IMG/VR virus record: IMGVR_UViG_3300032105_000080 | Location: 1-22,701 of that record | From: a virus | Direction: 5' to 3' (one strand) | DNA: 22,701 nucleotides | Shown here: positions 1,397 through 17,595 of the stretch, one piece after another | How the letters are laid out: each line of letters starts with the position of its first letter | Numbering within the stretch: the first letter of the stretch is position 1 | Position numbers and translations under genes: made by a program | The notes under the pieces: model-generated | Told to the model about the DNA's origin: nothing | Seen by the model: only the letters and a program-made list of their open reading frames with translations | Database searches by the model: none

Positions 1397-2875
1397 ATGT
1401 CTTCTCTTTATATGACTTCTATTATAAGAGCGTGTCAAGACCCCGGCCTTTTCCAGCCTTGGTTTAAGCGGGTCGAGACCTGGCGCAACTGGCGCGTTTT
1501 CCTCCGGGCGCTGTTTGGGCTTCCCTTTGCAAAGGGTGACCGTGTCATCTTCGAAAAGTGTACCGGACGTACACGTATCCCTAAGAAACCATTTACCGAG
1601 GCGTGGTTGGTCGTTGGCCGGCGAGGTGGAAAATCATTCATATTGGCGCTGATCGCAGTTTTCCTAGCGTTCTTTCGAGATTGGCGTCCCTACCTACAAC
1701 CAGGTGAAAAAGGGACGATCGTCATCATCGCAGCTGACCGTAAACAGGCTCGAGTGATTTTCCGTTTTATCGATGGTCTCATTATGAACATACCCCTGCT
1801 CAAGAAGGATGTTTATCTACCGACCTCAGCGGACGCGATCAATCTAAAGAACGACATTGTGATCGAGATCCATACCGCATCTTTCCGTAGTGTCCGTGGC
1901 TATGTCATTGTCGCTGCGCTTTTGGATGAGATTGCTTTCTGGAGAGACGAGAAAAGTGCCAATCCAGACACGGAGGTTTTGGATGCACTCCGTCCGGGTA
2001 TGGCAACCGTCCCAGGTTCGATGCTTATATGTGCATCCAGTCCATATTCAAAACGTGGTGTTCTTCATGATGTGTTCGCAGAATATTTTGGCAAGGAGAC
2101 AAGAGACGTCTTGGTTTGGAAGGCGTCAACAAAAATGATGAATCCCACCATTTCAGACAAGGTCATCGATCGTGCTTATGAACGTGATCCGGTTGTAGCG
2201 TCTGCAGAATATGGTGGCGAGTTCAGGACTGATGTAGAAGCCTTCATGACGAGGGAAGTTGTCAATGCTGCTACGTCATTCGGAACTTATGAACGTCCAT
2301 ATATAAAGGGGATTCGTTATTTTGGATTTGTGGATCCTTCCGGTGGATCTCAGGATTCGTTCACCTTGGCGATCGCCCATGCTGAAAACGGGATTCCTAT
2401 TTTGGACGTGATCAGAGAGAAGCGTCCACCGTTCAATCCTGAAACGGTTGTCAGTGAGTTTTCTTCCATAGCGAAGGAGTATAAGCTCACCTATGTTGTA
2501 GGTGATCATTACGGTGGTGAATGGCCAAGGGTACGGTTCAAGTCATGTGGGATTCAGTATCGGCTCTCGAAGACAGGTAAGTCAGCGCTGTATGTTGAGA
2601 TCTTGCCTGAGTTCAATGCTGGATTGGTGGAGATCCTAGACGTTGTGTTGTTGCGGAACCAGTTTTTGGGGCTGGAGCGTCAGACTTCCAGGAAAGGGAA
2701 GGATTCGGTAGATCACAAGCCTGGAGGAAGAGATGACTTGTGTAATTCAGCGACTGGTGCTTTGGTTTGTGCAACAAATAAGACCGTTGAGATTGATAGC
2801 TCACACTTTAGAGTTGGGCCGCGTTTAGTCTCGTCACAAATAGAGGATATGGAGGATATGTACATTGAGCCGTAA
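1397..2875 (+). CDS. terL: Phage terminase large subunit (DNA-packaging ATPase and nuclease)
   Basis: This is the packaging motor. Its N-terminal ATPase drives DNA through the portal and its C-terminal RNase H-like nuclease cuts the concatemer. Counting from the ATG at 1397 (492 residues), Walker A is GRRGGKS at about 74-80, Walker B LLDE at about 175-178, and a coupling-motif-like SSPYSKRG lies near 215. The nuclease acidic residues fit VDPSGG (about 312-317), GDH (about 369-371) and the late RDD (about 445-447). The length is normal for the family. The start is uncertain: no good Shine-Dalgarno precedes any candidate. The frame is open to a TTG at 1349, and an ATG at 1412 is also possible. 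The stretch before 1397 is hydrophobic and unlike the family, so I chose 1397. The end overlaps the portal start by 11 bases. No small terminase gene is seen next to it. Confidence 0.95.
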   Translation: MSSLYMTSIIRACQDPGLFQPWFKRVETWRNWRVFLRALFGLPFAKGDRVIFEKCTGRTRIPKKPFTEAWLVVGRRGGKSFILALIAVFLAFFRDWRPYLQPGEKGTIVIIAADRKQARVIFRFIDGLIMNIPLLKKDVYLPTSADAINLKNDIVIEIHTASFRSVRGYVIVAALLDEIAFWRDEKSANPDTEVLDALRPGMATVPGSMLICASSPYSKRGVLHDVFAEYFGKETRDVLVWKASTKMMNPTISDKVIDRAYERDPVVASAEYGGEFRTDVEAFMTREVVNAATSFGTYERPYIKGIRYFGFVDPSGGSQDSFTLAIAHAENGIPILDVIREKRPPFNPETVVSEFSSIAKEYKLTYVVGDHYGGEWPRVRFKSCGIQYRLSKTGKSALYVEILPEFNAGLVEILDVVLLRNQFLGLERQTSRKGKDSVDHKPGGRDDLCNSATGALVCATNKTVEIDSSHFRVGPRLVSSQIEDMEDMYIEP

Positions 2876-5800
2876 AAAGATAGCTAAATCCCCTTCGAAG
2901 AAGATGACAATCAAGCGATCTGTAAAGAAGCATAAAGCTGATCCAATCGATCCAAAGGATCTGATGTCTCAGATGGCTGTTGTCACCTCTAATATGTTTG
3001 TTGGAGATATTCTCCCACAGTTCAATCCGTCAGCGCTTGTTTCTAGGAAGGGTCTTCAAATCTATGACCGTATGAGAAATGATGACCAGATAAAGGCAGC
3101 ACTATGGTTTAAGAAGCTTGCCATTGTCAGTACGGGATGGGAAGTCATCAGTCCTGGGAATAAACCTGAGGACTGGGAAGTCACCCGTTTTGTTCGAGAT
3201 CAGTTCGATAACATCGAGCGATCATTCATGGACTGTATTGTCGAAATCCTCAGTGCACTTGATTATGGTTTTTCATGTTCAGAGAAAATATATTTTCCAA
3301 CACCGAAAGATCATCTATTCCCAAACAAGATCGGGTTGAGAGCAATCAAGTCTAAGAAACCACATGGAATTTCGTTCAAGATGGATGAGTTTGGTACTTT
3401 GGATCCAGACGGTATTGTTCAACAGGGTGGGAAAGCAGGAGGGAACAAGCTTCCGGTTGGTAAATTTGTGATCTACTCTCATCAGTTTGAGTTCAGTAAT
3501 TACTATGGCAAATCGGATCTGGAGGCGGTTTATCGCAGCTGGTGGGTAAAAGAAAATGCGTACCGATGGTTGGCGATGTTGCTCGAAAGATTTGGTATAC
3601 CACCGATCTTTGCCTTATACGAACCTGAGAGTCTTACAGAGAAGCAGATCAACGATCTCCTGACGGTCATTGAACGGATCCAGGCCGCGACCGCTGGTGC
3701 TCTTCCAAGAGCGTCTAAGGATTCGCTGGAGCTTTGGGCACCTCAGCTGGCTGGACAGGCGCAACGGGTCTTCATCCCTGCGTTGGAAATGTTCAACCGG
3801 GATATTGCTCGTGGGTTGTTGATGCCTGGGCTTATGGGTCTAACCCCTGATCAGCAGGTTGGATCCTTTGCTCGGGCTCGTGTCATCTTCGATGCCTTCA
3901 TGCTCATGATTAGTCGTACTCGTAGACAGATCGAGGATCTTGTGGTTACCGAGCAGGTTCTCCGTCCATTGGTCGATCTTAACTATGCTATCAAATCGGA
4001 TGAGTATCCTATGTTCCGGTTCCTTCCCATCACCGATGATCTTCGCTTGGATCTCATGAAGCAGTGGGGTGATTTTGTTGGTGCTGGTGTCACAGAGGCT
4101 CAGGTGGATGATGAAGAACATATCCGGAAGCTGTTTGCCTTTCCCAAGATTGATAAATCCTTACGTGGTGAAGAAATACTGCCGGACGATGATCTTGAAG
4201 ATGACGACGAACCTGTTGAAGATGATGACGACGAGGATGAAGGTGGGGATGAAGGAGGAGATGATGATGGTGATGATGGAGATTCAAACCTCAAGATTGG
4301 AAAACCAGAGAAATTGGCTTCTGAACAGGAAGAAGTAAAAACCTATGTCCCACGGACAACTCCGAACAGGTTCGAGAAGCAAGTAGATTTCAAGAAGATT
4401 ACTAAGACCTTGGATGATCTTGAGAGGAATTCGGTTAAGAATATTGTGGAAGCTATGGTCGATGTTCGGAATCGGTTCCTGAAGCATATCGAAAGTAAGT
4501 TTGACCATAAAGTCGCGTTTGTCCGTCAGTTGGCTTCATTAAGGGGGATGCCGAAGGTCTCACAGGCCATAGGCGAGTTTCTTGAGGAAGCCTTTGACCA
4601 GGGCACCGTTAGTGTACGGAACGAGCTGAGTGGGGTAGTGAAGTTTCAGGACGCACCCAACTTCAAGCCAACCCAAGCGATTAAGTTCCTCAAGACAAAA
4701 ACCTTTTGGATCACTGGTATCATCGATGATAGTCTTCGGAAAGAAGCAAGAGGTATTCTTCTCAATTCAATCGAGAACGGGGAGCCATTACGTGAGACGA
4801 TGAGGAAGTTGAAGACTTCATTCGAACCATACGTTGGTGATCCCAGTGTCATTCGTAGTGGACGTGTCATTTCCCCATCACGATTAGAGACCATCGTCCG
4901 AACCAATACTACTGATGCATTCAATCGTGGCCGGCTGGTGGAGGCACGAGCGGCTGAAGATCTCGTTACAGGGTTTGAATTCAGTGCAGTAATTGATGCG
5001 GTGACTTGTTTTCATGGTGATACTCTTGTTGTAATGGCTGATGGTATAAGAAAGGAAATTAGAAGTGTCAGACCTGGAGATAAAGTCCTCAGCGGTTGTG
5101 GAAGAGAACGACGTGTTAGAGCAATCAAAGTCAGTCTTGCAAGTCGATGGTGCATCATCAAGATGGAGGGGTCGGCACAAATCCGCACGACAATTACGCA
5201 TCCTTTCTGGACAATTCGATCCGGAAGCTATTGCTGGGTTCAAGCAGCTGACCTGTCGACAAACGACAGAGTTGGTACAATTGAACTGCCAAAATTGTGG
5301 GAAGGTGATGTTACGTCACAAAAGCAAGAAGACGAAGAAAATAAAGGGAGGGAAATACTGCAGTCTCATTTGTTACTACGCGGCAATTCGGGTTGTCAGA
5401 GTGAAATTGAAATGTGCAGGTTGTGGGAGAGAAGTTCTCAAGAGAGAGTCTTACATAAAGAGGAGAGGGTACAAGACACACTATTGCTCTCGGAGATGTC
5501 AAACTCGGGCTCGTCAGAAGGGTGTCTTAATGCGAGATCGTCTTCGGGTATGTCGAACCTGCGGAAGAGAGTTTTTCATATCACCAAAGAGTGTGTTGGA
5601 GAAGAAACAACGACAGCATTGTTCGAAGGAATGTCAGAGGCGGAGAGTTTGGAAAAATTGTCCAATTTGCGGACAGCAATTCGAGACAAAGATATTGGAG
5701 GGAAAGATTTATTGTTCACGGAAATGTTATCGTCGGTCGGATCTGGAAACGAGACCGGAAAAGACAGTGAGAGAGGAATTGGAAGCAATAGGGATTCCAT

Positions 5801-6404
5801 TCGAGCAAGAAGAACTTCTCGGGAAGTTTGTTGTGGACTTTATAGTAGACAACAAGATTGTTGTGGAAGTGAATGGGGAATATTGGCACCGAATGGACAA
5901 GAGGAAAGTAGAGAAGAGAAAAATGAAAGAAGCAAAGATGAAGGGTTTATGCTTTTTCAGGTTGACAGTGGGGAGAGACTTAAAAGTGGCCAGAAGCGAC
6001 TTTCTGAGAGGCCTGATCATTCTATTGCTCCGACCCCGACCGACTCTGTTGTGGTAACGTCTATTAGAAATTTCAGGGGATTGGAAGTGTGTTATGACTT
6101 GGAAATTGAAAGGGACCACACCTATCTGGTTGGTCCTGGCATTATTGTACATAATACTGAGGTCTGTCAGCATTTAGACGGTAAGATCATACGGAGTGAT
6201 GATCCGAACCTGGATATTTTGAAACCGCCGCGTCACTACAACTGCCGTAGTTTATTGGTTCCCATAACCTTAGATGTCCCAGTCAAAGAGGATGAGTTTT
6301 TGACCAAGCAAGATGGAGCTAAGGGAGTTGAATTGAGTGGAGAGAGTTTTGGTGGGCCAGCTAGAAAAGGACGAGTGAGGGGCTTGATTGAGGAAAGAGA
6401 CTGA
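2865..6404 (+). CDS. Portal protein fused to MuF-type minor head protein, interrupted by an intein
   Basis: One 1179-codon frame. Residues about 30-425 resemble the Mu gp29-like (DUF935) portal: YGFSCSEK near 134-141, GKSDLEAVYR near 215-224, then WWVKENAYRW. The portal forms the ring through which DNA enters the head. An aspartate-rich linker (about 440-473) leads to a MuF/SPP1 gp7-like domain from about 510. An intein (residues 715-1097) splits that domain just before the typical TEVCQHLDG motif, and the fold resumes with HYNCRS. After splicing the product would be 796 residues. The start is a TTG at 2865 with GGAGG at 2851-2855, nine bases away, so this unusual codon is well supported. The stop overlaps the ATG of the next gene (TGATG). 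Portal and MuF are usually separate neighbouring genes, so the fusion is less common but logical, because the two proteins act together. Confidence 0.93.
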   Translation: MSRKKIAKSPSKKMTIKRSVKKHKADPIDPKDLMSQMAVVTSNMFVGDILPQFNPSALVSRKGLQIYDRMRNDDQIKAALWFKKLAIVSTGWEVISPGNKPEDWEVTRFVRDQFDNIERSFMDCIVEILSALDYGFSCSEKIYFPTPKDHLFPNKIGLRAIKSKKPHGISFKMDEFGTLDPDGIVQQGGKAGGNKLPVGKFVIYSHQFEFSNYYGKSDLEAVYRSWWVKENAYRWLAMLLERFGIPPIFALYEPESLTEKQINDLLTVIERIQAATAGALPRASKDSLELWAPQLAGQAQRVFIPALEMFNRDIARGLLMPGLMGLTPDQQVGSFARARVIFDAFMLMISRTRRQIEDLVVTEQVLRPLVDLNYAIKSDEYPMFRFLPITDDLRLDLMKQWGDFVGAGVTEAQVDDEEHIRKLFAFPKIDKSLRGEEILPDDDLEDDDEPVEDDDDEDEGGDEGGDDDGDDGDSNLKIGKPEKLASEQEEVKTYVPRTTPNRFEKQVDFKKITKTLDDLERNSVKNIVEAMVDVRNRFLKHIESKFDHKVAFVRQLASLRGMPKVSQAIGEFLEEAFDQGTVSVRNELSGVVKFQDAPNFKPTQAIKFLKTKTFWITGIIDDSLRKEARGILLNSIENGEPLRETMRKLKTSFEPYVGDPSVIRSGRVISPSRLETIVRTNTTDAFNRGRLVEARAAEDLVTGFEFSAVIDAVTCFHGDTLVVMADGIRKEIRSVRPGDKVLSGCGRERRVRAIKVSLASRWCIIKMEGSAQIRTTITHPFWTIRSGSYCWVQAADLSTNDRVGTIELPKLWEGDVTSQKQEDEENKGREILQSHLLLRGNSGCQSEIEMCRLWERSSQERVLHKEERVQDTLLLSEMSNSGSSEGCLNARSSSGMSNLRKRVFHITKECVGEETTTALFEGMSEAESLEKLSNLRTAIRDKDIGGKDLLFTEMLSSVGSGNETGKDSERGIGSNRDSIRARRTSREVCCGLYSRQQDCCGSEWGILAPNGQEESREEKNERSKDEGFMLFQVDSGERLKSGQKRLSERPDHSIAPTPTDSVVVTSIRNFRGLEVCYDLEIERDHTYLVGPGIIVHNTEVCQHLDGKIIRSDDPNLDILKPPRHYNCRSLLVPITLDVPVKEDEFLTKQDGAKGVELSGESFGGPARKGRVRGLIEERD
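5007..6155 (+). other. Intein in the MuF domain, with a nested endonuclease gene in another frame
   Basis: An in-frame protein-splicing element of 383 residues. It starts with Cys (codon 5007-5009) in CFHGDTLVVMADG, a typical block A. Block B is ITHPFWT with its His, near 5190-5210. Block F is CYDLEIERDHTYLV, and the element ends in His-Asn (6150-6155) with Thr as first downstream extein residue. All residues needed for class 1 splicing are present. The N-terminal Hint part (about 93 residues) and the C-terminal part (about 37) are in the portal frame. The roughly 250 residues between them are rich in Ser, Glu, Arg and Gly, with no recognisable fold. That DNA encodes the endonuclease in the +1 frame. 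No in-frame LAGLIDADG or HNH domain is present. Confidence 0.92.
5065..6057 (+). CDS. Zinc-ribbon Vsr-like (EDxHD) homing endonuclease encoded in the +1 frame inside the intein
   Basis: This is likely the nuclease that spreads the intein by cutting intein-free alleles. Numbered from the GTG at 5065 (330 residues), four Cys4 ribbons follow in tandem: C75/C78/C99/C103, C117/C120/C141/C145, C163/C166/C186/C190 and C199/C202/C217/C221, presumably for DNA binding. A Vsr/DUF559-type nuclease domain follows at about 229-310: E232 (RPEKTV), D258 (VVDFIV), E268 and H275 (VEVNGEYWH). The last Asp of the EDxHD pattern appears to be Glu (E283). The GTG has AAGGAA a few bases upstream, but residues 1-72 only mirror the splicing domain in another frame. 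The functional protein may begin nearer 5266-5281, where in-frame TTG codons occur. It ends with TAA at 6055, just where intein block F takes over. Independent initiation or a frameshift from the portal frame are both possible. Confidence 0.85.
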   Translation: MSDLEIKSSAVVEENDVLEQSKSVLQVDGASSRWRGRHKSARQLRILSGQFDPEAIAGFKQLTCRQTTELVQLNCQNCGKVMLRHKSKKTKKIKGGKYCSLICYYAAIRVVRVKLKCAGCGREVLKRESYIKRRGYKTHYCSRRCQTRARQKGVLMRDRLRVCRTCGREFFISPKSVLEKKQRQHCSKECQRRRVWKNCPICGQQFETKILEGKIYCSRKCYRRSDLETRPEKTVREELEAIGIPFEQEELLGKFVVDFIVDNKIVVEVNGEYWHRMDKRKVEKRKMKEAKMKGLCFFRLTVGRDLKVARSDFLRGLIILLLRPRPTLLW

Positions 6405-6634
6405 TGGAAATCAATTGGCTGGAGCTTCACTTATTCGCTGTTGCTTTCTTGACGGTGTTTGTTGTGTTTTTCTATAACAAGATGGTGATTCCCATTTCCA
6501 ATGGTCATAATTTACCACTCTGGAGTTGTGATCTGATATATGTACTTATTATCACAATAATGTGGCCACTTGTTCTGGTTATCATGATTGTAAGTCTGGT
6601 GAAAGGTTTCTATCGTGGAATAAGTGGGAGCTGA
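6404..6634 (+). CDS. Small membrane protein with two predicted transmembrane segments
   Basis: I do not recognise this 76-residue protein. It has two hydrophobic stretches, about residues 7-25 (LHLFAVAFLTVFVVFFY) and 43-65 (LIYVLIITIMWPLVLVIMIV), separated by a short polar loop and ending in a basic tail (KGFYRG). The ATG overlaps the portal stop by one base, and a GAGGAAAGAGA stretch just upstream provides the ribosome site, so it is translationally coupled to the portal gene. Its size and topology would fit a class II holin, but the position in the head module is unusual for that. A membrane-anchored assembly factor is equally possible. Confidence 0.7.
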   Translation: MEINWLELHLFAVAFLTVFVVFFYNKMVIPISNGHNLPLWSCDLIYVLIITIMWPLVLVIMIVSLVKGFYRGISGS

Positions 6635-11422: not shown

Positions 11423-11481
11423 CTTAAAATTGTAAAAAGTAATGTTTGGTGAGTCGTATAACTTCAGGAAGAACGGATCTA

Positions 11482-12171
11482 ATGCCTAAACGTAAGTCCA
11501 ACCAAATTTCTGTCGTAGTCCCCTGTTTGACGGAAGAGCCTTGGCAAGTTCATTTGACTAAGGCGGTGATAAATATAGCTCGGGAGACTACCAAGATCCC
11601 ATACGAACTCATCATTGTCGAAGCAGTAGGGAACGAGTTTGACAATGGATGTGACAAATACTATCGCAATCCTCATAAAGGATTTGTGAATGCGGATCTA
11701 AACAAGGGGATGGATCTGGCAGAGGGGAATATCATAGTTGTCTTGACCAATGATGTATTTGTAAAGACGGGATGGCTTGAAGCCCTTGTGGATTGTTTTG
11801 ACATTAAGAGCTGTGGAATGGCAAGTCTTGGAACGTCGGATCATCGAGAAATATCCATGCCAGTGATTCGTGAGGGGATATGGTGTCCTTTGATGGCAAT
11901 TCCTAACAGACCAGATTTTAGATTTGATGCTGAAACTTTTCCGGCTTATTGGGGTGACTGTGATTTGGTGATGAAGATCTACAATGCTGGGTTCCAGGCA
12001 TATCGGAATCGTCGGGTGATCTGTGACCATCTGGGTAGAGCGACTGTCACTGAAGAGCATGTTCTAGGGAAGCCTGAAGAAATAGAGAAGGCAAAAAATA
12101 AATTCATTGAGCGCCATCAGACATCACATCATTTGATTTTTCGTGTCTTGATGGAAGGGTTTGTTGTATGA
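11482..12171 (+). CDS. Family 2-like glycosyltransferase (GT-A fold)
   Basis: A 229-residue protein predicted to transfer a sugar from a nucleotide donor. The N-terminal QISVVVPCLTEE and ELIIVEAVGNEFDNG strands, the helix with GFVNADLNKGMDLAEG, and IIVVLTNDVFVKTGWLEAL match GT2 architecture. The usual DxD metal motif is represented by TNDV, and a later YWGDCDLVMKIYNAGF with ICDHLGRAT fits the acceptor side. The ATG at 11482 follows AGGAA; the frame is open upstream without a better start. It lies next to the three-domain sugar enzyme, and both interrupt the structural operon. The target may be a virion protein or a host glycan; sequence alone does not say which. Confidence 0.85.
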   Translation: MPKRKSNQISVVVPCLTEEPWQVHLTKAVINIARETTKIPYELIIVEAVGNEFDNGCDKYYRNPHKGFVNADLNKGMDLAEGNIIVVLTNDVFVKTGWLEALVDCFDIKSCGMASLGTSDHREISMPVIREGIWCPLMAIPNRPDFRFDAETFPAYWGDCDLVMKIYNAGFQAYRNRRVICDHLGRATVTEEHVLGKPEEIEKAKNKFIERHQTSHHLIFRVLMEGFVV

Positions 12172-12204
12172 ATCTCACAATACAAAACGAGAGTAGATGA
12201 GATA

Positions 12205-15147
12205 ATGAAATACACATATGATATATCGATGCTCGTTCCAGGGATGCCCTTCGATGGGGATTCGCTGGAAACCGGAAGTCTCGGAGGGAGTGAGACGTCC
12301 GCAATTTGTTTGGGGAGAGAGCTTCAGAAAATAGGCCACCGGGTAAAGATATTTTCCAATTGTAACAAGCCTGGGGTTTTTGATGGGGTGTATTACTATC
12401 CAATCGATCAATGGAGTGCATTTGTTCTTTCAACACCACATGACGTTGCAATATTTGAACGCACACCAGACATGTTGCAGGTGCGGACGTGTGCGAAGTT
12501 GAATATTCTTCATGTTCATGATCTAGCTCTAGGACGACAGGCTGATCCGTTTCGTGCAGTGATGTGGAATGCCGACAGCGTGTTTGCTGTGAGTGAGTTT
12601 ATGAGACAGCAGTATTGTAAGGTTTATGGTCTACCTAAGAAGTTTGTGTGGAAGACCAGGAACGGACTCGATCTGTTTAGATTTCCAGAAATAGATAACG
12701 AAAAACGTCATCGCAATCGGTTAGTGTATGCGGCGAGACCAGAACGTGGTCTTGATGTTCTTCTTGAAATCTTTCCGAAGATACTGGAGCGTGAACCATC
12801 AGTCGAATTGGCGTTGTTTGGATATCATAATCCAGTTGATCACATGAAGGAGTTCTATAGCCAACTCTCTCAGAGGACATCTTCATTTGGGGATAAGGTT
12901 CGGTTTGTTGGGGAGCTTTCTAAATCGGCGTTGTACCAGCAGTATGTGGAAGCAGGGATATATGCTTATCCGACGCCGTCACCGTTGATGAAAGATTTTA
13001 ACGAGGTTAGCTGCATTTCGTGTCTTGAAGCTCAGGCGGCTGGAATGCCGATCGTTACAAGTAAACGTGGCGCTCTTGTGGAGACGGTGGATCCTGGAGC
13101 GGGCATCCTTCTTGAAGGAGATCCTAGTTCGGAGGAATACCAGGAGAAGTTTGTTGACGCGATCATTTCCTACATGCACGATGATAAACTTTATGATGCA
13201 GCCAGCGAGGCTGGTCAAAGGAAAGCTAGAAAGCTTGGATGGGATGGTGTCGCTAAAGACTGGACAAAAAAGTTTGATCGTATGATTGAAGAATTAAATG
13301 ATGATCCAGTTCGGTTGGCTCATCACTTCTATTGGAGGAGTGACATATTCGCAGCGAAGAAAGCGCTCAAGGGTCAGACCAGTCCATCAGCTAAACGTCT
13401 CCGTCATAAGATCAGTGAGGAGTACGCATTCATAAAGTCTCGCGATATATTTGAGGAGCACTATCGTAAAGGTGGGGAGAACACGGACACCCGATTGAGC
13501 GGTATTCCTGTTGAGGAGCATGATTTCAAGACAACAAGTGAAAAGCGGTTCCACATCTTGGTCAAGTACCTGACCGATCATCCAGAATTGGAAAACATTC
13601 TGGAGTTTGGTTGTGGTCATGGATGGTCTTCGATCTATCTTCACAATCAGCTTGGGCGAAAGTGGACTGGTGTTGACATTGATCCAGGGGCTATAAAGTG
13701 GGCACGGATCTTCACCAAAGAACATGCAAATCATCCGGAGGATCTTGAGTTTGTTCAAGGATCTCACGACGTTGATCTTGGTGATCGTGTTCCATTCGAT
13801 TGCGTAATTTTATCTGAAGTCCTTGAGCATTGCATCGATCCGTACAAGACAATCGAAGCGGTTGAAAAAATGGTGAAGCCTGGTGGAATCGTGATCGTCA
13901 CTGTTCCCTATGGGCCATCGGAATATGGAACGTCTAATTGGGAAAAATTCAGAAACCACCTTTGGGAATTTGATGTCCACGATCTCCAGGATATGTTTGG
14001 GAAGAAACATGAGATGAATCTCTTCGCAGTTTCCATGTTCCCGAACAGCAAGACCGGGGATATGTTGGGATTCCATATCATAAACTATCGTGCAGATCAA
14101 GAACCTGTCGGTCGGATTGATTGGGATCGGAAGCTTTGGCTTCAACGTCCACGATTGACAACGTCTGCAAGTATCATCGCAGGTCCAAACTGTGAGGACA
14201 CTTTGCTATGGTGTCTCAACTCCATAAAGTGGATAGTGGATGAAATCGTTCTTGCAGATACAGGACTGTCTCCCTTGGCAAGATCCATGGCTGAAAGCGT
14301 TGGTGTGAGATTCGTAGAAAATGCCAGCAACCCGACGGTGGTTGGATTTGAAGTTCCGAGGAACGAATCTTTGGATAAGTGTTCCATGGATCTGGTTCTA
14401 TGGATCGATACAGATGAGAAGCTTCTCGGTGGGGAATTTTTGACTAAATATTATCGGAAGTGTATCTGGGATGGATGGTCTATTCGTCAACACCACTTCA
14501 CCGTCGACACGTCATGGAAGCCTGACCTTCCGGTTCGTCTTTTCACACGTGGACCAGTCAAAGGAAAGGAGATTCGCTACATTGGGAAAATTCACGAACA
14601 TCCCGAGCGTGGTCTCAACAAGGGACCTGGAGATGTTCTGATCCTTCCGGATGTCCATATTGCACATGTTGGATATCTTAATGAAGTGACTCGTCGGGCT
14701 CGGTTCCTTCGGAACACTCCATTGCTTGAACTTGATAAGAAAGCGTACCCAGATCGTCTGTTACAAAAGCACTTCATCATGCGAGACAATATGCTCATGA
14801 ACATGTATGAGCACCAGCTTAATGGTGGTCGAATCACGGATTCCATGCGTAAACGCGCTGAGGAAGTCATAGACCTGTACAGAAATAATTTTCTTGGTAA
14901 AAAGAAGTATGCCTTTGTCGATGGTCTTGAATATTACACGGAAGCATTGCGTCAGCTCGGACAAGGTATTGATGTGGCGTTCAACCTCGCTGCTGGCCGC
15001 GACGGGGTTGGGGATGACGTAATGAATGGAACACCTTTCAGTGGCGGTCCTGTTGTTGCACGATTTGCCGACGTGAACGAGGCATCTGCTGAACTTGTCT
15101 ATAGGATGAGGGAAAAGATGAATCCTCTGACAAAGGAAGGGTGGTAA
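12205..15147 (+). CDS. Three-domain fusion: GT4 glycosyltransferase - SAM methyltransferase - GT2 glycosyltransferase
   Basis: A 980-residue protein with three enzymes in a row. Residues about 1-362 form a GT-B family 4 glycosyltransferase: GGSE near 27-30, RNGLD near 152-156, AARPERGLD near 176-184, and the E-x7-E of EVSCISCLE at 267-275. Residues about 405-630 form a class I SAM-dependent methyltransferase: LEFGCGHG at 466-473, VDIDPGAI at 490-497, and ILSEVLEHC with a following KPGG. Residues about 650-840 form a GT-A glycosyltransferase: SASIIAGPNCED, then ADTGLSP, and the DxD in LWIDTDE at 732-738. A C-terminal region of about 140 residues is helical then Gly-rich. The enzymes could build and methyl-cap a short glycan. 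The ATG at 12205 has only a weak GATGAGA upstream. No stop or frame break lies between the domains. Confidence 0.9.
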   Translation: MKYTYDISMLVPGMPFDGDSLETGSLGGSETSAICLGRELQKIGHRVKIFSNCNKPGVFDGVYYYPIDQWSAFVLSTPHDVAIFERTPDMLQVRTCAKLNILHVHDLALGRQADPFRAVMWNADSVFAVSEFMRQQYCKVYGLPKKFVWKTRNGLDLFRFPEIDNEKRHRNRLVYAARPERGLDVLLEIFPKILEREPSVELALFGYHNPVDHMKEFYSQLSQRTSSFGDKVRFVGELSKSALYQQYVEAGIYAYPTPSPLMKDFNEVSCISCLEAQAAGMPIVTSKRGALVETVDPGAGILLEGDPSSEEYQEKFVDAIISYMHDDKLYDAASEAGQRKARKLGWDGVAKDWTKKFDRMIEELNDDPVRLAHHFYWRSDIFAAKKALKGQTSPSAKRLRHKISEEYAFIKSRDIFEEHYRKGGENTDTRLSGIPVEEHDFKTTSEKRFHILVKYLTDHPELENILEFGCGHGWSSIYLHNQLGRKWTGVDIDPGAIKWARIFTKEHANHPEDLEFVQGSHDVDLGDRVPFDCVILSEVLEHCIDPYKTIEAVEKMVKPGGIVIVTVPYGPSEYGTSNWEKFRNHLWEFDVHDLQDMFGKKHEMNLFAVSMFPNSKTGDMLGFHIINYRADQEPVGRIDWDRKLWLQRPRLTTSASIIAGPNCEDTLLWCLNSIKWIVDEIVLADTGLSPLARSMAESVGVRFVENASNPTVVGFEVPRNESLDKCSMDLVLWIDTDEKLLGGEFLTKYYRKCIWDGWSIRQHHFTVDTSWKPDLPVRLFTRGPVKGKEIRYIGKIHEHPERGLNKGPGDVLILPDVHIAHVGYLNEVTRRARFLRNTPLLELDKKAYPDRLLQKHFIMRDNMLMNMYEHQLNGGRITDSMRKRAEEVIDLYRNNFLGKKKYAFVDGLEYYTEALRQLGQGIDVAFNLAAGRDGVGDDVMNGTPFSGGPVVARFADVNEASAELVYRMREKMNPLTKEGW

Positions 15148-16890: not shown

Positions 16891-17595
16891 TTAGGAGTAG
16901 ATGTGCAAATAACCAGCGATTATCTTGATGACGGTTTTTGGATTGGCGCAAACTTCTTTGTTTGTGAACCGAAGCACGCGGAACTTCAGTTTGTTCAGAT
17001 ACTTGGTCTTTCGCTTGTCTCTCTCACGAATTTTAGGCACCGATTTATGGTCACCACCGTCAATCTCTACACAGATCTTACTCGGCAGATGTACAAAGTC
17101 GGCTTCGTAATATGTAAGACCTCCCTGTTGGTTTTTACATGGTATAGGAAACTTATGACGAAAGATAAATCCGAGTTTAGTCAATCCGGGAAGAACAGCG
17201 AGTTCAGACGGTGTTGGGGTGTTACTGAAAGTTGGCAGATTCCGAGATTTATAGCGTCCTTCGACCCAGCGCTTTTTTACGGTCGCACTGATTTTCAGTT
17301 TTGTCTCAGAACGTTGTGGTTTCTGGTTGGCAGCTATAATACGCTGTCTACCTTCAGGAGACGGAGGAGTATATCTGAGTTCTCCACTTTTGTATTTCCG
17401 TTTAAGAGTCTTGCTGATTTTTGCCCGTACTTTTGGATCATCACGGGAGGGATTGTGCAGCTTTTTGGCCGCAGAGATCTTAGCGGCAACTTCAGGCCGC
17501 GTCGACGGCGGTATCATCCTACCTTCTCGGTAGGCGCGTTTGACGCCTTGAGAAATGCGTCGGCGCTGCTCTTTGGACCACTTCCGTTTAGGCAT
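16891..17595 (-). CDS. Free-standing homing endonuclease, Vsr-like EDxHD nuclease with NUMOD3-like repeats
   Basis: A 234-residue nuclease on the strand opposite to the structural genes. Residues about 4-115 hold repeated basic helix modules of the NUMOD3 type (SKEQRRRISQGVKRAYREGR, EVAAKISAAKKLHN, KVRAKISKTLKRKYKSG, KLKISATVKKRWVEGRY), which bind DNA. Residues about 126-215 form a Vsr-like domain as in the I-Bth0305I family: E131 (TPSELA), D166 (YEADFVHL), E177 and H183 (VEIDGGDH) and D193 (ERDKRK). It probably cuts genomes lacking the insertion so that repair copies it in. The ATG at 17595 lacks a strong Shine-Dalgarno, suggesting low expression. It lies neatly between two tail genes and disrupts neither, but its transcript would oppose the operon. 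Confidence 0.9.
   Translation of the reverse strand: MPKRKWSKEQRRRISQGVKRAYREGRMIPPSTRPEVAAKISAAKKLHNPSRDDPKVRAKISKTLKRKYKSGELRYTPPSPEGRQRIIAANQKPQRSETKLKISATVKKRWVEGRYKSRNLPTFSNTPTPSELAVLPGLTKLGFIFRHKFPIPCKNQQGGLTYYEADFVHLPSKICVEIDGGDHKSVPKIRERDKRKTKYLNKLKFRVLRFTNKEVCANPKTVIKIIAGYLHIYS

Follow-up and report, generated by a model that had tools for sequence, protein, structure and literature searches.

A putative homing endonuclease gene overprinted out of frame within an intein of a phage portal-MuF gene

Inteins are the textbook case of a nuclease and a splicing domain combined in one polypeptide, and canonical mobile inteins carry a LAGLIDADG or HNH domain in frame. Whether the two must share a reading frame is the question raised by a portal-MuF gene in the virus record IMGVR_UViG_3300032105_000080, of which positions 1 to 22,701 were analyzed here (the window). 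This 22,701-base record codes for the head and tail module of a tailed phage, and its portal-MuF frame contains an apparent intein within which a zinc-ribbon nuclease is encoded in frame +1. We consider it likely from the sequence that the element is a mobile class-1-like intein with its homing endonuclease gene overprinted in the +1 frame between the splicing halves. A preliminary description of the locus, made from the letters alone, had proposed a complete nuclease nested out of frame in this way, so that splicing and cutting would belong to separate proteins, and the comparisons below support that proposal. The features of the locus are as follows.

2865 to 6404, plus strand: portal-MuF precursor, a single open frame including the intein (open reading frame [ORF] list, domain matches)
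5007 to 6155, plus strand: predicted intein of 383 amino acids (aa), from C1 to the terminal HN, with Thr at +1 (residue bounds, profile matches, empty site)
5007 to 5300, plus strand: N-terminal splicing half, with CFHGDTLV, TITHPFW, and LSTNDRV (PF14890, PF05203, purpose-built hidden Markov model [HMM])
6045 to 6155, plus strand: C-terminal splicing half, blocks F and G, YDLEIERDHTYLVGPGIIVHN (TIGR01443, purpose-built HMM)
5065 to 6057, plus strand: nuclease ORF from its first NTG to TAA, in frame +1 relative to the host frame
5272 to 6057, plus strand: probable extent of the nuclease gene, from TTG at 5272 or 5281 (relatives start just before ribbon 1)
5287 to 5727, plus strand: four zinc ribbons, CxxC...CxxC (conserved Cys, AlphaFold2 [AF2])
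5749 to 6030, plus strand: EDxHD/Vsr-like catalytic domain (domain matches, alignment, structure 3r3p)
5283 to 6042, plus strand: overlap read in the host frame, a stop-free polar linker with no recognizable domain (frame analysis)
5051 to 5056, plus strand: AAAGGA, a possible but not distinctive ribosome-binding site 8 nt ahead of GTG 5065

The ORF at 2865-6404 matched Portal_Mu (PF06074, 1.9e-45) and Phage_Mu_F (PF04233, 2.4e-10), and intein/Hint domain matches flank a gap in this frame on either side. The intein sits between two Thr codons of MuF (5004-5006 and 6156-6158), its boundaries being set by residues between T and C at 5007 and between HN and T at 6155. A relative with an empty site (L007) reads ..ILDMKT/TEVCRFLDG.. 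where the window reads ..VIDAVT/intein/TEVCQHLDG... The purpose-built HMMs matched at 8.8e-30 over 5007-5276 for the N half and at 2.7e-14 for the C half; the window was among the training sequences of both, which were built from it and some of the relatives discussed below, and independent support comes from Pfam. PF14890 matched at 6.4e-8, just below its cut-off, and the C-terminal block model TIGR01443 at 1e-4, above its cut-off. The element has the residues of a class 1 intein (C1, block B TITHPF, terminal HN, +1 Thr), and by sequence it is a class-1-like intein for which splicing is predicted. A group I or II intron with a nested endonuclease gene was rejected, Rfam giving no match at E<=1 across 4700-6500. 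The host gene is one open frame (2865-6404) rather than a split intein or fractured gene, and the nuclease lies in frame +1 rather than in frame as in mobile inteins of the canonical kind.

The nuclease ORF comprises 330 codons, with four zinc ribbons and a Vsr/EDxHD domain in the last 258. Vsr, DUF559, and MTES_1575 domains matched it, each under its curated cut-off. Residues E160, D186, and H203 (258-aa numbering) are retained, and the E-D-H set is invariant across 20 relatives. An AF2 model from 20 sequences had a predicted local distance difference test score (pLDDT) of 85, and the best solved structure was the I-Bth0305I catalytic domain (PDB 3r3p; sequence 1.3e-5, fold 1.6e-4), the catalytic domain thus having the Vsr-like fold that defines EDxHD homing endonucleases of the I-Bth0305I type. 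Domains, conserved residues, and structure matches together confirm a four-zinc-ribbon Vsr-like nuclease in the +1 frame between the portal-frame splicing halves. The preliminary span of 5065-6057 holds for the open frame from first NTG to TAA and not for the gene start, 5065 being merely the first NTG of that frame and the domain beginning near 5281. Nor does the nuclease end exactly where block F begins, as had been stated; its TAA (6055-6057) lies about 35 bases ahead of block F proper.

One sign of dual coding is the host frame itself, which has 0 stops over the 257 codons of the overlap against 14.9 expected when the nuclease's own codons are permuted, or 22.2 under phage codon usage. Zero host-frame stops occurred in none of 20,000 synonymous codon shuffles of the nuclease. 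Such a stop arises where T closes one nuclease codon and AA, AG, or GA opens the next; of the 60 at-risk positions that allowed a synonymous T none has it, versus 54 of 129 elsewhere (Fisher p=1.3e-11, a value somewhat flattered by the choice of the window for its open frame, the relatives having been found by nuclease similarity). The remaining sense frame has 18-19 stops over the overlap, and in the window's other genes the longest stop-free run in the same relative frame is 72 codons, versus 257 here. With no host-frame stop where some 15 would be expected, both frames of the overlap look constrained. The D/E content of the linker is at the 99.8th percentile, more acidic and polar than codon constraint demands, which is at most suggestive. 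A hidden domain in the linker was considered and rejected, relatives sharing at most weak similarity there.

Relatives of the nuclease were gathered by scanning IMG/VR twice with an alignment-based nuclease query and then applying HMMs of both splicing halves, and fall into four layouts: same-strand +1, antisense, in frame, and split or broken. Most are out of frame, which answers the proviso of the preliminary description that homologs might always carry the nuclease in frame. Besides the window, same-strand +1 nesting occurs in four divergent inteins of MuF type, assigned by a Pfam/PHROG match (L090), by a PHROG family in common with L090 (L091 and L092), or by the DERTxEVC motif only (L026). 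Their host frames are likewise stop-free, with 0 stops against 6.8 (L026), 8.5 (L090), 10.2 (L091), and 12.9 (L092) expected (each P<=2.5e-4). Among the five +1 inteins the nucleases are 31-41% identical (E 1e-27 to 1e-54), whereas the host-frame linkers have no or weak similarity (best E 5e-17, others 5e-6 or worse). Between the window and L026, for example, the nuclease is 33% identical over 250 aa (E=8e-37) and the splicing half 36% (E=2e-12), with E=0.2 for the linker.

Antisense nesting in the codon-aligned frame was found in MuF inteins of L027 (=L028), L030, L031, L032, and L094, again with an open host frame. The nuclease cores of these cases contain 0 TTA, CTA, or TCA codons versus 1.6-4.9 expected (P 0.005-0.19 each), the expectation being taken from the codon usage of neighboring genes, as host stops here are nuclease TTA/CTA/TCA codons and permutation is uninformative. 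The antisense hosts share the motif MPV.A.DF.G, which does not point to a domain in the host frame; by hand it proved to be the antisense reading of EVDG.YWH in the nuclease. In L031 one MuF gene (1756-4722, minus strand) has two inteins, each bearing an antisense nuclease ORF, and the second such Vsr-like ORF (1792-2601) covers nearly the whole 272-aa intein, splicing blocks included.

The other two layouts are represented by fewer loci. A canonical in-frame intein carries the same nuclease family in L113. Split or broken forms comprise L046 (split, exteins resembling DnaE), L083 (split, ribonucleotide reductase-like), L029 (a MuF intein with antisense nuclease, its host frame broken into two ORFs), and L099 (an N-intein half fused in frame to the nuclease, the C half in another frame). 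Related or Vsr-like nucleases were also seen outside these layouts. In Mycobacterium phage Techage (L004) and in L003, L038, and L039, a relative lies antisense between two DNA methylase pieces and is recorded as an opposite-strand hypothetical protein or left unannotated. In L056 (2488-3870) a Vsr-like nuclease is in frame with the C-terminal part of a RecA-like gene, with no recognizable intein blocks.

We propose that ribosomes reading the host frame would produce a portal-MuF-intein precursor with the overlap as an unstructured, exposed linker, and that the intein would then excise itself. Other ribosomes would initiate inside the intein coding region and yield a free zinc-ribbon EDxHD nuclease. 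In co-infecting phages whose MuF gene lacks the intein, the free nuclease would cut that gene, and its repair would copy in the whole intein along with the nested gene; we infer the cutting of empty sites and homing from the nuclease family. Under such a scheme the linker would accept nearly any amino acid but no stop codon, which fits the observed pattern. Translation of the nuclease probably begins at a start codon of its own. Ribosome-binding sites are present at nested starts in several relatives, with AGGAG 8 nt ahead of ATG in L027, L030, and L032, AAGGAG before TTG in L090, and AAAGGAG before TTG in L092.

Several observations count against an overprinted, functional homing endonuclease in the window. 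Its nuclease has no convincing start signal among the candidates (GTG 5065, TTG 5272/5281); the two TTG codons match the start position of relatives but lack a clear ribosome-binding site, and Shine-Dalgarno strength by duplex energy did not separate the candidate starts from background. The near-invariant Asp 211 (Glu by alignment with I-Bth0305I, 3r3p) is replaced, so this copy of the nuclease may be weakened and its activity is not assured. AF2 gave the host-frame intein a pLDDT of 39 and no usable fold, with the N half alone partly folded, and the near-identical copies of the window are uninformative on selection in its own nuclease frame. For an experimental analog, the intein of Chandler gp6 considered below, the nuclease was not assayed in the passages of PMC5050341 consulted here.

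In one alternative reading of the locus, two compensating indels could have shifted an in-frame nuclease, and an in-frame version of the family is indeed known (L113). Indels near 5270 and 6050, named in the preliminary description as a test of its claim, were looked for and not found in two further assemblies. IMG/VR contig 3300010931_000028 shares 8,100 bp with the window and differs by 2 substitutions; contig JAHCSE010000023.1 (L088) of a metagenome-assembled genome (MAG) shares 6,774 bp and differs by 9. Neither alignment has a gap, and none of the substitutions falls within the intein. A frame previously unused should moreover have held some 15 stops rather than zero, and four divergent relatives have the nuclease in the same frame. 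We therefore reject an artifact of sequencing or assembly, the chance of which is negligible, on the gap-free assemblies and the host-frame stop statistics. A programmed +1 frameshift, giving a portal-MuF-N-intein-nuclease fusion instead of an internal start, would suit the weak start signals of the window and the natural N-half fusion in L099. It seems improbable given the good ribosome-binding sites of several nested relatives and the absence of a host-frame stop near 5270-5300 to force the shift, and it is not possible for the antisense versions. A slim chance also attaches to the nuclease being a decaying passenger of an intein that alone matters. The substitution at position 211 and a long terminal branch in the nuclease tree would agree with decay; the 330 stop-free codons, the retention of all zinc cysteines and of E, D, and H, and the conservation of nuclease rather than linker among nested relatives would not.

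The preliminary description had left open whether nesting is an intermediate or a stable solution. A transitional state, leading to a fractured gene (split intein, free-standing nuclease) or returning from one, is rather unlikely in our view. In its favor, L046 and L083 have the same family in split form, the host frame of L029 is broken in two, and the N-intein, nuclease, and C-intein ORFs of the S16 UvsW gene overlap only at their ends. Against it stand five divergent inteins whose +1 nesting comes with a stop-free host frame, together with antisense nesting in another five genes or more. In the nuclease tree one change suffices between the same-strand and antisense groups, and each layout is compatible with a single origin; most deep forks and the order of layout changes are not resolved. 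Stability is thus the better supported of the two, and as judged from these sequences the nested form is a long-lived architecture, because five divergent inteins keep frame +1 and the tree needs a single same-strand/antisense change. The split and broken forms fit occasional passage between layouts, in a direction that they do not specify.

Nesting is also found with other nuclease types in terminase (TerL) inteins. The intein of L078/L082 has an out-of-frame HNH_3 nuclease (4.6e-15; stop test P 0.01). In Gordonia and Mycobacterium phages, the enzyme lying out of frame inside TerL6-f inteins is an endonuclease VII (5e-21), with stop tests that are individually non-significant in these GC-rich sequences (P 0.06-0.7). 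Among the matches listed, about three dozen records have endonuclease VII beneath a gene annotated as terminase. In the TerL intein of Chandler gp6, the endonuclease VII is nested in frame +2. According to the passages of Kelley et al. (2016; PMC5050341) consulted, which do not mention the nested gene, this intein splices readily in a reporter assay, and it offers an experimental analog for the splicing predicted of the nested design. The out-of-frame endonuclease VII of the TerL inteins in L014 and L018-L024 (Gordonia and Mycobacterium phages) is missing from the record annotation; a start codon in the homologous position falls on a conserved Trp codon of the splicing domain.

It is somewhat less than an even call, but we tentatively suggest that inteins with overprinted endonucleases form a widespread, undescribed class of mobile elements in phage head and terminase genes. 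Their nuclease genes would occupy one or the other of the two alternative sense frames, or else the codon-aligned antisense frame, would have several origins (EDxHD, HNH_3, endonuclease VII), and would have been long kept because the cutting enzyme could be expressed independently of a late structural protein within one mobile unit.

Compared with canonical inteins, represented for this family by L113, the window has the nuclease in the same place between block B/N4 and block F, but out of frame and presumably as a separate protein rather than as part of the precursor. Fractured genes, in which a free-standing EDxHD nuclease separates the halves of a split intein, were reportedly described by Dassa and colleagues in 2009. 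Such genes (S16 UvsW, L046) resemble the window in nuclease role, position between the halves, and catalytic class, and L046 in its zinc-ribbon family; they differ in having the host frame divided over two genes, whereas in the window one continuous frame runs through the nuclease and the intein is unsplit. In the UvsW gene of Salmonella phage S16 (L016), the ORF between the N- and C-intein ORFs encodes a NUMOD3/TnsA-like nuclease. The actinophage TerL6-f inteins (Chandler, Phlyer, Gordonia Vividuovirus) share the nested out-of-frame nuclease and open host frame, with splicing shown for that of Chandler (PMC5050341), and differ in nuclease (endonuclease VII/HNH), frame (+2), and host gene.

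The closest precedent is not an intein. Out-of-frame HNH insertions in phage methylases, such as that of ShiLan, were reported in 2025 (PMC11855218), the authors finding no support for an intein. As in the window, an insertion that keeps the host frame open carries a homing-type nuclease in a different frame, and the nuclease start codon lies inside the insertion; the window differs in having both splicing halves, an EDxHD rather than an HNH nuclease, and an intein by sequence. Nesting is not the one-of-a-kind form first supposed: three or more types of nuclease show it, and it occurs on either strand. Inteins with an overprinted nuclease gene were not found described in the literature searched, and neither were antisense nesting and the MuF family with EDxHD nucleases; that search did not take in a preprint on non-canonical actinophage inteins (bioRxiv 2025.01.02.630785), which may include the actinophage cases, so that priority is uncertain.

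In nested inteins, splicing and cutting would share DNA and not protein, a third stable way, beside in-frame and split inteins, of keeping splicing and homing linked. A single nuclease family occurs in frame, nested on either strand, and split, which opens the origin of split inteins to direct study. The overlap would also be a clean natural case of dual coding, one frame being held to its sequence and the other chiefly kept clear of stops. Annotation that allows one frame per region overlooks such nucleases, as in the actinophage TerL inteins that are recorded as plain terminase or intein and carry one.

Apart from the near-identical MAG contig, one scan of GTDB genomes gave a single weak match. 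A single-sequence protein search of IMG/VR with the nuclease returned the near-identical contig only, and it took the alignment-based search to reach the relatives. The DNA pattern for intein ends, [ILVF]VHNT[ED][IV]C, found in IMG/VR only that contig and three chance matches. The L088 copy is binned with a Patescibacteria MAG, either a hint of the host or a binning error. Elsewhere in the window, a free-standing DUF559/Vsr-like nuclease of 234 aa (16891-17595, minus strand) lies between tail genes and is a second homing-type nuclease in this phage. Two large ORFs at 11446-15147, within the head-tail gene order, look glycosyltransferase-like by eye, and the second of them (980 aa) has, also by eye, a methyltransferase-like stretch.

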